Of a stretch of 64,000 nt of DNA, positions 1-3,375 are shown in pieces (the stretch's first letter is position 1; the number at the start of each line of letters is the position of its first letter). Below the pieces are notes generated by a model. The model was not told the origin of the DNA. It made no database searches and worked only from the letters and a program-made list of their open reading frames with translations. The DNA comes from Candidatus Nitronauta litoralis (GTDB taxonomy: Bacteria > Nitrospinota > Nitrospinia > Nitrospinales > Nitrospinaceae): assembly GCA_015698285.1 (NCBI GenBank), contig CP048685.1, forward strand, positions 2,976,001 through 3,040,000, given 5' to 3'. The position numbers were made by a program, and so were the translations under genes.

Positions 1-767
1 CCGCCGCCACTCCCGCCGCCAGGGGTCTTATTGAACGCCCCGCCAAGTTCATCCATCATCATTGCAAACGGGTCTGTACTGGTTACATCCGTCGCGTGGG
101 TTTCAAATTCACGATCCCGCATATCAAAGACTAGAAGCCCATCATCCCTCTTATCCTGTAAAAAATTTTTAACAGTAGTCGGATCATCCGAACCCATTTC
201 GATATACGTCTCATATTGTTGACTCTCGGAATCCTGACCGACACACTTAATATAAGAGGGGTTGTAGTTCACCTGATTACACCCGCTCATGGTCAGTGGA
301 AGGTTTTCACCAGGTGGAGGGGTGAAGGGAACACCCCCCTCATTATTTCCTTCTCCATTGGTTATAAAGTCTTCCAGTTCTTCACCCGGGTCAGGTGGAG
401 CTTCATTGAAAGTCCCGTCATCAAATAGCTTATTGCCATGTTCATCCTGAATATAGGCACCGCCCTGAGTGTGTCCGCCTGTCAATTTTCCCATGTAAGC
501 CGGTGCCGCAGGACAACCGGAACACAAAATCCTCCTCACTGTTGTAGTGGGTACATGAAAATAACTTGCTGGACTCCCATATGGGCCGCTATTCAAGTTG
601 TCACATGATCTACCAGGATCGGAATTAACAACAGCATTCCCAAATGCCGCCCAGGACCCATAAGTGTGTTCATTCCATCCGCTAGTCGAGGTTGAACAAA
701 TGAGAGCAAAAGAAAACTGAGGAACCATCAAAAAAAGAAGGAACATTATTAATCTAGCGATTGCCAT
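1..767 (-). CDS. Secreted Cys/Gly-rich phage protein, gIII (adsorption) position, partial
   Basis: An open frame starts at ATG 767-765 and runs off the left edge (255 codons visible). The N-terminus is a clear signal peptide (MAIARLIMFLLFLMVPQFSFA), followed by a secreted region with several Cys residues, an acidic and Pro-rich middle, and a Gly-rich run (GGGSGGG) at the window edge. Secretion, paired Cys and Gly linkers are the architecture of filamentous-phage adsorption proteins such as M13 g3p. The gene also sits in the gIII position, after the major-coat gene and its terminator. The start overlaps the preceding 41-aa gene by 14 nt, and a G-rich stretch just upstream could serve as ribosome binding site. 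No sequence homology is claimed. A generic secreted phage protein is the alternative. Confidence 0.6.
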   Translation of the reverse strand, partial: MAIARLIMFLLFLMVPQFSFALICSTSTSGWNEHTYGSWAAFGNAVVNSDPGRSCDNLNSGPYGSPASYFHVPTTTVRRILCSGCPAAPAYMGKLTGGHTQGGAYIQDEHGNKLFDDGTFNEAPPDPGEELEDFITNGEGNNEGGVPFTPPPGENLPLTMSGCNQVNYNPSYIKCVGQDSESQQYETYIEMGSDDPTTVKNFLQDKRDDGLLVFDMRDREFETHATDVTSTDPFAMMMDELGGAFNKTPGGGSGG

Positions 768-879
768 GGCCTACCCCCATAACAAATAGAAAGAAGAAAA
801 GAACAGAAACGAATTCCTCTCCCCTAAGAAAATTTGAAAATTCATTGATGGCTTGCGTTAATAATTCGGTTTCGGACAT
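754..879 (-). CDS. 41-aa membrane protein between major coat and gIII-like genes
   Basis: This ATG-to-TAG frame of 41 residues begins MSETELLTQ, has a Phe-rich hydrophobic helix (VSVLFFFLFVMGVG) and ends HGNR. Its 3' end overlaps the start of the gIII-like gene by 14 nt, as expected for translational coupling. An AAGAG stretch lies about 8 nt before the ATG. The size and one-helix layout match tiny filamentous-phage virion proteins (g6p, g7p and g9p classes). It could be a minor coat or assembly protein; the exact role is inference. Confidence 0.5.
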   Translation of the reverse strand: MSETELLTQAINEFSNFLRGEEFVSVLFFFLFVMGVGHGNR

Positions 880-894
880 AATTTTCTCTTAAAA

Positions 895-946
895 GGGAAG
901 AGGGGAGCCATGGCCCGGATCAACCAGGACCAAGGCCCCCTCTTTT
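895..946 (-). terminator. Intrinsic terminator after major-coat-like gene
   Basis: Directly after the coat-gene stop codon (947-949), bases 934-944 (GGCCCCCTCTT on the + strand) pair with 898-909 (AAGAGGGGAGCC) with one bulge, followed on the minus strand by CCCTTTT. M13 also carries a strong terminator straight after gene VIII, so the position fits the phage interpretation. Confidence 0.6.
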
Positions 947-1141
947 TTACGCCTTAAGCATTTGGCGAATTTTAGACAGACCAAACATCAGCGCAGAAAC
1001 GGTTAGAACTGCAATACCGCCAGCCGTCACGTCTTCAGTCGCCTGGGTGGTGTCCACAGAAAACACAGGAACGGCCCAAGCTGGCAGGGATACTGAAATC
1101 ATGACAAATGCCAACGTCAAAACACTTAAAAATTTTTTCAT
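947..1141 (-). CDS. Filamentous-phage major coat protein-like (gVIII position)
   Basis: The product is 64 aa. A signal peptide (residues 1-23, ending LPAWA) precedes a predicted mature chain of 41 residues. The mature chain has an acidic amphipathic start (Asp, Glu, Asp), a central membrane helix (GGIAVLTVSALMFGL) and a basic end (KIRQMLK). That charge layout is diagnostic of the class I inovirus major coat protein, where the basic tail contacts the packaged ssDNA. A near-perfect Shine-Dalgarno (AGGAGGT) lies 9 nt upstream, and a terminator follows immediately, consistent with high expression. Position between the tiny-protein genes and the gIII-like gene also matches M13 gene VIII. The call rests on architecture and synteny, since the family has little primary sequence conservation. 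Confidence 0.75.
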   Translation of the reverse strand: MKKFLSVLTLAFVMISVSLPAWAVPVFSVDTTQATEDVTAGGIAVLTVSALMFGLSKIRQMLKA

Positions 1142-1192
1142 CGGTGTTTACCTCCTTTCTTGATAGATTTCCCAAATGGGATTAAGTGAATA

Positions 1193-1318
1193 CTACCTTC
1201 CCAAGGTATTCCGGACCTTGAGGAAGGCAAAGAGAACTAGTTGAACAGTTATTAATGCAATTCCCAGTTCAGTATGATCCTCCAGGGCTTGAGGCAAATC
1301 GAAAGTAAAAGTAGGCAT
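1193..1318 (-). CDS. 41-aa membrane protein, gVII/gIX-like minor coat candidate
   Basis: The frame ATG 1318-1316 to TAG 1195-1193 gives 41 residues: a short polar/acidic N-terminus (MPTFTFDLPQALEDH), a hydrophobic helix (GIALITVQLVLFAFL) and a basic end (KVRNTLGR). The ATG overlaps the stop of the upstream 27-aa gene by one base (TAATG), a sign of translational coupling. The location just before the major-coat gene is where filamentous phages keep the minor coat genes VII and IX. Its charge pattern resembles an uncleaved mini coat protein. Confidence 0.55.
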   Translation of the reverse strand: MPTFTFDLPQALEDHTELGIALITVQLVLFAFLKVRNTLGR

Positions 1319-1401
1319 TATTTCCCCAACATTTTAAGAATGGTCCCGACCGTAAAGCCGAGAAAATAAATTGAAAATAAAGCAAAGGAAAAATCAGTCA
1401 T
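1318..1401 (-). CDS. 27-aa membrane protein, gVII/gIX-like minor coat candidate
   Basis: A 27-residue frame starts at ATG 1401-1399 and ends at TAA 1320-1318. It is almost entirely one hydrophobic helix (FALFSIYFLGFTVGTIL) ending KMLGK. A strong Shine-Dalgarno (AGGTGAGG) lies 3-4 nt upstream, which argues that this very short frame is translated. M13 g7p and g9p are 33 and 32 aa, also single helices made without signal peptides. The downstream 41-aa gene starts on the last base of this stop codon. Confidence 0.55.
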   Translation of the reverse strand: MTDFSFALFSIYFLGFTVGTILKMLGK

Positions 1402-1405
1402 AACC

Positions 1406-1483
1406 TCACCTGGAAAACCAATCCAAATAACTAAATATGCCAATAAGCAGAGGCACAATTGCCAACGGATTGCTATTTTTCAA
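1406..1483 (-). CDS. Possible 25-aa membrane peptide with TTG start
   Basis: Starting at TTG 1483-1481, the frame reads 25 residues (KNSNPLAIVPLLIGIFSYLDW core) and stops at TGA 1408-1406, five bases before the 27-aa gene. It has the polar head plus one helix layout of its neighbours. There is no ATG and no obvious ribosome binding site, because two AT-rich palindromes occupy that position. It may be real or chance. Confidence 0.3.
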   Translation of the reverse strand: MKNSNPLAIVPLLIGIFSYLDWFSR

Positions 1484-1506
1484 AATTCGAATTAAAAATT
1501 CGAATT
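1484..1506. repeat. Two identical 10-bp palindromes, possible operator or hairpin
   Basis: AATTCGAATT occurs at 1484-1493 and 1497-1506, 13 bp centre to centre. Each copy is self-complementary, and together they can fold as one hairpin. They separate the replication genes (initiator, ssDNA-binding) from the morphogenesis genes of the phage, where a regulatory site would be useful. A near copy (AATTCGAATA) occurs at 4591-4600, outside the phage. Confidence 0.5.
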
Positions 1507-1509
1507 GTT

Positions 1510-1566
1510 AAAAAACAGCTGAAAAAACAAAAAACAAAAAACAAAAAACAAAAAGACAAAAAAAAC
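1510..1566. repeat. A-rich tandem heptamers (AAAAAAC)
   Basis: Four exact tandem copies of AAAAAAC lie at 1522-1549, with a further copy at 1510-1516 and degenerate A-runs to 1566. On the coding strand of the phage this is GTTTTTT repeats. The flanking 1567-1666 stretch is AT-rich with no convincing gene. Possible roles are DNA curvature, rho-independent attenuation after the ssDNA-binding gene, or slippage. Confidence 0.6.
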
Positions 1567-1666
1567 TTAAGGGAAAAGTCCAAATTCAAAAATAAAAAAA
1601 TTAAAACAAATTTTAAAAATTAAGAATCCCTTTCAAAATTAGACCCTTCAATTCTTTAAACCCAAG

Positions 1667-1999
1667 CTATGCAGCTTTTTGTTCACCTGGCTTTTTTGTT
1701 TCTTTAACTTCGAGAATTTCTTCTTTTCCCCTACAAGACAAATAGCAGAAATATTTCTGCCTTTCTTTTTTAATGCCGGTGACCGGAAAAATAAATTTCT
1801 TCCCAACCATTTCATTGAGTAAACCCCATTCAATAGGCGCCCGTAAATCCACCAGTTGAAGCCTACTCTCCCCACTCGGTTGTTTTTCTTCAGCCATTAC
1901 CTGGATAAGATTAGAAGCTTCCCAAGAATCACCAGTTGTTGGGTTTTTACCAGCAGGATTCTGAGAAACAGCAAGAACTTGTCCTTGAAAATTAAACAT
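1667..1999 (-). CDS. Candidate phage ssDNA-binding protein (gV position)
   Basis: A 110-aa soluble protein, MFNFQGQVLAV... with an alternating beta-type pattern and a charged, Lys-rich C-terminal tail. No membrane segment is visible. It follows the replication initiator by 26 nt and has an AGGA Shine-Dalgarno 8-11 nt upstream. The gene right after the initiator in filamentous phages encodes the ssDNA-binding protein (g5p), a small OB-fold protein that coats the single strand and regulates translation. Length and position fit; no OB-fold motif can be proven by eye. Another small replication accessory is possible. Confidence 0.5.
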   Translation of the reverse strand: MFNFQGQVLAVSQNPAGKNPTTGDSWEASNLIQVMAEEKQPSGESRLQLVDLRAPIEWGLLNEMVGKKFIFPVTGIKKERQKYFCYLSCRGKEEILEVKETKKPGEQKAA

Positions 2000-2025
2000 A
2001 GTTAATTCCTTTCGTTGTTTTTGGT

Positions 2026-2991
2026 TTAATTATTAACTTCTGAAACAAATTGATGCTCGATAAGAAATTCTAGAAACTTTAAATTGTCTACGTTGGGATT
2101 TTCATATGTGTGTTTGGCGAAAGTCTCTGGCGTACCAATCCTTTCGATTAAACCTGCTTTTTCCCCTTCTGAATCATAAACAAAAGTCTTTTTAAACTTC
2201 CTAAACCGACCACCAAAAGAAAATTTATTAACACCTAAAGTTTGTTCCCATAAATCTATTAAATCCTGTCCTTCGAGATGAACGTTTTTCGTGATGTATT
2301 TAGTTAATTCCTTTTTGCATTTTTCATGATCCCCTTTCGATAAAGGCTCCCGAATCCAAGTGATCTGACCAAACCCAAAAAATTTAAGAATAAGTGAAAA
2401 AGTTTTGACGTAATAAAAGCCCTGGGAAAGAAAAAAATAATGGAGATTCCAATCACGTGGCGAAAAAGTAGTAAAGTCGATTTCTTTTTCCATCCGATTA
2501 ATAAACCGCTTATTTAAAGTCAAATCCATAACCGGATGGGAAACCAAAACATGAAAATGAGGGTTAACGGTTGAAAACTTTTTTTCAAACTCAAGCTTTT
2601 TGTAGAACCCATTAATGTGTTTGAAATATTTTGAACCGGAAAACTTCTTCCAGGACAAAGCCATAGAATTAAGTGTTTTTTTCATTTCTTTAATTTCTAC
2701 CCTCGGAACGGTTACAGAAAAGGACCGATAGCAATTTCCGTCCTGAAAGTCGATCTGTTCTAATCTTTCGGAAACCCCAAGGAACTGAATGGAATTACAA
2801 AACCCACAAAAGAAGGAACCACACCTTCGGGCATGGATTTTTGGCTTTCCGTCGTAGAGATTGACCTCCAAAGAGGCCCCACACTCAATTATTCTTTTTC
2901 CCAATTTTTCCAATCTAGGTATCCCCGATAGAATGAATTCAGCCCCAATATCAGAATTGCGGCGGAGTCTTTTACCTGCCCGAAACTTCAC
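2026..2991 (-). CDS. Rolling-circle replication initiator (HUH endonuclease, Rep_1-like)
   Basis: This 321-aa protein nicks the origin and starts rolling-circle replication. It carries an HUH motif (HFHVLV, His145 and His147) for metal binding and a downstream catalytic-type motif (ELTKYITKN, Tyr232 with Lys235), the order and spacing of Rep_1/plasmid-type initiators with a single Tyr. A Cys cluster at residues 57-65 (CGSFFCGFC) may bind zinc. The start is GTG 2991-2989: no in-frame ATG exists between it and the upstream stop. It heads the minus-strand phage gene set, and G+C-rich hairpins lie just upstream. A rolling-circle plasmid origin for the gene is the alternative, but the coat-like genes downstream favour an inovirus. 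Confidence 0.8.
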   Translation of the reverse strand: MKFRAGKRLRRNSDIGAEFILSGIPRLEKLGKRIIECGASLEVNLYDGKPKIHARRCGSFFCGFCNSIQFLGVSERLEQIDFQDGNCYRSFSVTVPRVEIKEMKKTLNSMALSWKKFSGSKYFKHINGFYKKLEFEKKFSTVNPHFHVLVSHPVMDLTLNKRFINRMEKEIDFTTFSPRDWNLHYFFLSQGFYYVKTFSLILKFFGFGQITWIREPLSKGDHEKCKKELTKYITKNVHLEGQDLIDLWEQTLGVNKFSFGGRFRKFKKTFVYDSEGEKAGLIERIGTPETFAKHTYENPNVDNLKFLEFLIEHQFVSEVNN

Positions 2992-3033
2992 TGAACTCGG
3001 AAAATGTTTGTCTATGTATCAAGTAAAGGCGAA

Positions 3034-3077
3034 CCCCGACCAGGCGCGCTACGCGCGCCAAGATCGGGGCGCGCCCC
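3034..3077. other. G+C-rich nested hairpins, candidate phage origin or packaging signal
   Basis: GGCGCGC/GCGCGCC (3043-3059) forms a 7-bp stem with a TAC loop, enclosed by CCCCGA (3034-3039) pairing with TCGGGG (3064-3069). A 12-bp perfect palindrome, GGGGCGCGCCCC, overlaps at 3066-3077. This is far more G+C-rich than the surrounding phage DNA and lies about 45 bp upstream of the initiator start. Filamentous phages keep origin and packaging hairpins in the intergenic region upstream of gene II. Confidence 0.5.
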
Positions 3078-3138
3078 TTGGCCCCTCTTTTCCCCATGGA
3101 ATTGGCTTTCGGGTAGCTCTGGTCCGAGGGAAAAGAAG

Positions 3139-3181
3139 AAAAAAAGCCGCTTAACGGCGAGGGAGAAATCCGTAAGCGGCT
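3139..3181 (-). terminator. Intrinsic terminator downstream of tRNA-Glu
   Basis: AGCCGCTTA (3145-3153) pairs with TAAGCGGCT (3173-3181), extended by CGG/CCG across one bulged A, with a 12-nt loop. On the minus strand it is followed by TTTTTTT. It lies about 105 bp beyond the tRNA-Glu 3' end and probably ends that transcript before the phage origin region. Confidence 0.75.
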
Positions 3182-3284
3182 ATTGCACGAGGCAACACTT
3201 TGGCAACTGCTATTTTGCTTTTTGAGAATTGAATTTTGATTTACTGCGGTAGGTAACTCTAAACAAAACAAGAAGAAGGAGAAA

Positions 3285-3356
3285 TGACCCCAGGGGGAAT
3301 TGAACCCCCGTTCCCGGCGTGAGAGGCCGGTGTCCTAACCGCTAGACGATGGGGCC
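3285..3356 (-). tRNA. tRNA-Glu (CTC)
   Basis: The minus strand folds into a full cloverleaf: acceptor GGCCCCA with TGGGGTC (one G-U pair), the D-arm, an anticodon stem CCGGC/GCCGG with loop CTCTCAC giving anticodon CTC, and a T-arm GGGGG/CCCCC with loop TTCAATT. The 3' CCA is not encoded (genomic TTT follows the discriminator A), unlike the tRNA-Gln at 7927. Its 3' end points at the inovirus-like region, the usual geometry for an element integrated at a tRNA gene. Confidence 0.92.
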
Positions 3357-3375
3357 TTGAGTCGTAGGTTCAGAA

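Follow-up and report, generated by a model that had tools for sequence, protein, structure and literature searches.

The window analysed is a stretch of 64,000 bp (G000:C1:2976001-3040000) from the closed 3,921,641-bp chromosome of 'Candidatus Nitronauta litoralis'. It starts within a prophage, and positions 1-3181 cover just the right ~40% of it. The remainder lies to the left in the neighbouring stretch L002 (window position = L002 position - 14000). A repeat comparison in the closed host genome gave a size of ~7.8 kb, with 7,795 bp separating the att copies. On the minus strand, the element encodes a Rep_1 HUH initiator, a candidate ssDNA-binding protein, two tiny one-helix proteins, a coat protein followed by a terminator, a small protein, a pIII-like protein, a DUF2523 (pVI-like) protein and Zot/pI. 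Beyond Zot/pI, a divergent HTH repressor and then a tyrosine integrase are encoded. The main reading frames are all intact. The features listed by the initial annotation for positions 1-3181 are all present on the minus strand. The proposed order gII-gV-gVII/gIX-gVIII-terminator-gIII matches the annotation of IKe, with V, VII and IX placed by position only.

The integration site is a tRNA-Glu gene (CTC; 3285-3356, minus strand). A 47-nt repeat of its 3' half is present at L002:9490-9536, left of the window, and within the tRNA at L002:17285-17331 (window 3285-3331). The former is the displaced host att copy and the latter the phage-supplied one. A second attachment site had been predicted to the left; the displaced copy is this site, in agreement with an empty site in the same-genus genome G011. 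There, the left host flank continues straight into an intact tRNA-Glu, followed by the right flank. The displaced copy is identical to the G011 tRNA in 41 of 41 positions, the copy now completing the tRNA in 39 of 41. The element thus integrated at the 3' half of the tRNA and itself supplied the sequence that replaces the displaced end. It shows all features expected of tRNA-integrating temperate elements: an integrase next to att, the tRNA 3' end as a direct repeat and an empty site in a relative. The tyrosine integrase (L002:9591-10793) matches PF00589 (4.9e-7). The repressor (L002:10843-11280; HTH_3, 7e-8) is encoded on the strand opposite to Zot. Between repressor and Zot, a plus-strand gene convergent with Zot (L002:11339-11746) codes for a 135-aa protein without a known family, perhaps with a regulatory or accessory role. 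Zot is separated from the convergent genes by a bidirectional hairpin terminator (L002:11759-11783).

The annotated HUH initiator, the gII equivalent, is a Rep_1 family protein (2026-2991, minus strand; PF01446, 2e-11) with HFH and YITK motifs and a cysteine cluster. Upstream of rep, the intergenic strand folds much better than shuffled sequences (z -3.1 over 2985-3285). It contains GC-rich nested palindromes (3029-3110, minus strand), a candidate replication origin or packaging region. Terminator and folding scans detected a strong hairpin followed by a T run in the region between tRNA and rep (3145-3181, minus strand). A candidate rolling-circle nick site, ACTTGATAC (3016-3024, minus strand), is located 25-33 bp upstream of the rep start; we take it to resemble the phiX174/pC194 nick site. 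The same 9-mer occurs within the first codons of rep in a distant inovirus of another Nitrospinota genome, G073 (L022:12996-12988, minus strand), whose initiator is also a Rep_1 protein (1.2e-14). The core CTTGATA has one further occurrence in the element, against roughly one by chance; it is therefore the position and the shared 9-mer that carry weight. Judged from these sequences, a nick site shared by the two elements is possible. A sigma-70 promoter scan of the element performed no better than on shuffles.

For the ~110-aa ssDNA-binding candidate, the annotated ORF (1667-1999, minus strand) and its gV position stand. Support by family match or structure was not obtained: the 110-aa protein has no Pfam, PHROG or PDB match, and the AlphaFold model has a pLDDT of 41. 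The tiny one-helix proteins annotated next to it are also present. A 27-aa protein in the gVII/gIX position (1318-1401, minus strand) starts from an ATG with a good RBS, and a 41-aa protein in the gIX position (1193-1318, minus strand) is encoded directly upstream of the coat gene. The 64-aa major coat protein (gVIII; 947-1141, minus strand) has a strong RBS and a signal peptide ending in AWA. The structure prediction consists of a signal helix (2-18) and a single long helix (34-63), as anticipated for a class I coat protein; a PHROG major head match is weak (0.022). The expected terminator downstream of the coat gene is a hairpin of -34.7 kcal/mol (z -3.2) at about 896-944 on the minus strand.

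The 41-aa protein upstream of the coat gene is a paralogue of the mature coat protein. In a gapless alignment, 17 of 39 residues are identical (44%; BLASTP 1e-10). The alignment begins at the predicted signal-peptidase cut, the first residue of the mature coat, and the paralogue is without a signal peptide. Its score of 82 was reached by none of 5000 shuffled sequences with the hydrophobic pattern preserved (mean 20, maximum 57). At this place f1/M13 encode pVII and pIX, single helices without a leader, located at the virion tip that recognises the packaging signal (PMC10175506, PMC10480500). The sequence data would most simply be read as a coat-gene derivative that became a tip-type protein. 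We tentatively propose a leading-tip (pVII/pIX-type) protein that arose when the major coat gene was duplicated and the copy lost its signal peptide. The paralogue may instead be a second, alternative coat inserted without a signal peptide, as is the coat protein of Pf3. This is rather unlikely: the gapless match over the whole length of the mature coat is in its favour, but the paralogue sits in the gVII/gIX place, is leaderless as are pVII and pIX, and the neighbouring gene already provides a coat protein with a leader. If the assignment as a tip protein is true, the paralogue connects the tip-cap proteins of filamentous phages directly, at the level of sequence, with their tube proteins, in a lineage whose hosts are marine nitrite oxidisers. 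The gene renders testable an old idea on the origin of filamentous-phage tip proteins, which reportedly goes back to Makowski in 1992 (a work cited in PMC10175506).

In 11 reference inovirus records surveyed for coat paralogues, one clear duplicated pair of small proteins appeared, in Stenotrophomonas phage SMA7, besides weak ones in Pf1 and blackswan219. Among 81 IMG/VR loci, many of them near-identical and nearly all retrieved with a Vibrio/Alteromonas Zot query, no pair exceeded a score of 60 apart from low-complexity ones. Coat duplication is thus uncommon, not unique. The two similar coat-like small proteins of SMA7 (L062:2774-2908 and 3103-3375) align with a score of 112. The first copy is unannotated in the record and represents another coat-type duplication in an inovirus.

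Behind the coat terminator, the further tiny protein of the initial annotation is a 41-aa one-helix protein (754-879, minus strand), whose ORF overlaps the pIII start. The secreted Cys/Gly-rich protein in the gIII position extends from 767 leftwards (window 1-767; L002:13235-14767 as a whole; minus strand). This pIII-like adsorption protein has 510 aa, a signal peptide, Gly-rich linkers and a C-terminal helix, and its C-terminus matches phrog_4544 (6.6e-5). The DUF2523 protein (L002:12903-13235; 110 aa) has matches to DUF2523 (7e-6) and to a PHROG minor head protein (5e-12). The Zot-like (gI) ATPase predicted to the left was found at L002:11805-12899 (PF05707, 3.6e-29; PHROG Zot-like, 8e-45). 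It has the Walker A motif GLMGAGKT and a membrane segment behind the ATPase domain. A secretin or a gVI-like protein had also been sought there: DUF2523 is the gVI-like protein, and no secretin (gIV) gene is located within the element, in which Zot is followed by the terminator and the convergent genes. Strong secretin matches, at least five in number, lie elsewhere in the host genome, all outside the element. Two host secretin domains lie ~1 kb apart (G000:C1:2029939-2031904, frames of 643 and 509 aa) and are possible virion exit channels.

The order II-V-VII-IX-VIII-terminator-III-VI-I, as annotated in IKe (NC_002014), is common to Ff/IKe (Inoviridae) and the element, as are a leadered coat, leaderless small proteins and intergenic hairpins before gII. 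Ff/IKe have a gIV secretin after gI, which the element lacks. In contrast to Ff/IKe, it has a Rep_1-type initiator and is temperate, with its own tyrosine integrase and repressor. Similarity between its coat and the Ff/IKe coat was not detectable. Among temperate marine-type inoviruses, Vibrio fs1, Vf33 and VALG_phi8 and Alteromonas phiAFP1 have Zot proteins 28-32% identical to that of the element over half its length. They encode a DUF2523-type minor protein at the same place and likewise have no annotated secretin gene. They differ in initiator, coat and pIII, and no large tyrosine integrase is annotated in their records.

Inoviruses (Tubulavirales sensu Roux 2019, PMC6813254) are characterised by short one-helix structural proteins, a genome of ~5-15 kb, a rolling-circle initiator, circular ssDNA, a filamentous virion and chronic release. 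The element has 7,795 bp, within the range of about 5-15 kb, a rolling-circle initiator of the Rep_1 family and short structural proteins (30-90 aa) with one membrane helix, encoded by the 64-, 41- and 41-aa ORFs, plus the 27-aa one. The tyrosine-integrase gene, the att core with the empty site, the HTH repressor and the filamentous-phage families in canonical order support a complete integrated inovirus (order Tubulavirales) in a Nitrospinota host, which the sequence makes very probable. A defective or domesticated remnant, unable to make virions and kept by chance or, for example, for superinfection immunity, is improbable. The missing secretin and the gV candidate, unsupported by family match or model, would suit a remnant. 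Against it, the gene set is complete with no broken frame, both att cores are preserved (39/41) and the coat gene retains RBS and terminator; the phages phiAFP1 and VALG_phi8 are also without an annotated secretin gene. Contamination or mis-assembly, with a co-cultured heterotroph as one conceivable source, can practically be dismissed, even with a probable source culture described as not axenic (PMC8026999), as the element lies within a host tRNA of a closed chromosome, with host flanks that match the same-genus genome G011 and are contiguous there.

As a complete inovirus, the element would have the following life cycle. The integrase would insert the circular double-stranded form into tRNA-Glu, with the phage-borne end restoring the tRNA. 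After induction, Rep would nick the coding-sense strand at ACTTGATAC, ahead of its own gene, and drive rolling-circle replication. The 110-aa protein would coat the phage single strand. Zot/pI would thread the ssDNA across the inner membrane, where the coat protein, cut after AWA, would replace the ssDNA-binding protein. The leading tip would be capped by the 27- and 41-aa one-helix proteins, both leaderless, and pIII/pVI would close the opposite end. Given that a phage-encoded secretin is absent, the virion would exit non-lytically via a host secretin.

The element adds a new and distant member to a well-known group of viruses, the M13-like, filamentous, non-lytic kind. The claim that its proteins share no obvious sequence identity with known phages has to be corrected: Zot, DUF2523, Rep_1 and integrase belong to known families. 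An unreported lineage had been suggested. This holds for the distant member itself, of which the open papers searched contain no report; the kind is known (Roux 2019). A filamentous phage had also been considered new for the host group. In the open literature searched, no report of an inovirus or filamentous phage with Nitrospina or Nitrospinota was found, but the finding is less surprising than claimed, since inoviruses are known from nearly all bacterial phyla. Roux 2019 (PMC6813254) reported inovirus-like sequences in 22 additional phyla; its main text does not name Nitrospinota. Many strain-specific proteins in PMC8026999 were described as phage-related, and main-text passages of that paper make no mention of a filamentous phage. 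The element is a known kind of phage, but with an unusual second, shortened copy of the coat gene. Among known marine nitrite oxidisers, Nitrospinota rank as the most abundant (PMC8026999); a phage that is secreted while its host survives would have another effect on them than lytic phages. Should the cultured 'Ca. Nitronauta litoralis' EB be the host, release of virions and excision are open to direct testing.

Convincing Zot proteins were present in 4 of 77 Nitrospinota genomes: this one (G000), G006, G073 and G023. Marginal Zot-model matches to long proteins in G071, G075, G039 and G062, probably other ATPases, were not counted. The elements in G006 (JACRGP010000112.1), G073 and G023 have Zot, DUF2523 and pIII-like proteins as here, with Zot identities to the present element of 33%, 20% and 18%, respectively. 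A coat paralogue comparable to the 41-aa protein was found in neither G073 nor G023; the G006 contig begins at pIII. One same-order Nitrospinota genome has its inovirus on an 11,659-bp contig. Single-sequence Zot scans of IMG/VR and GTDB contigs and IMG/VR scans with a pVI alignment or the coat protein gave no match. A two-sequence Zot alignment retrieved one weak IMG/VR contig (L025, 26%) and a Nitrospinota contig, evidently the 11,659-bp one. The whole-element DNA search of the phylum yielded almost only tRNA-like matches and no DNA-level sister phage.

The G023 inovirus contig (L054, G023:C13; 5656 bp), from a high-completeness Nitrospinota assembly, has a 141-bp exact terminal repeat and is thus circular. 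It encodes its own Rep of another kind, a recognisable Phage_DNA_bind protein, coat, pIII, DUF2523/pVI-like protein and Zot; the assignment to a Nitrospinota host rests on binning. As in the present element, a tyrosine integrase lies beside tRNA-Glu in G006. This integrase (L021:3313-4512, G006:C41) is 26% identical to the one described here, and its gene ends at a distance of 43 bp from tRNA-Glu (TTC); tRNA-Glu may therefore serve as an integration site more than once.
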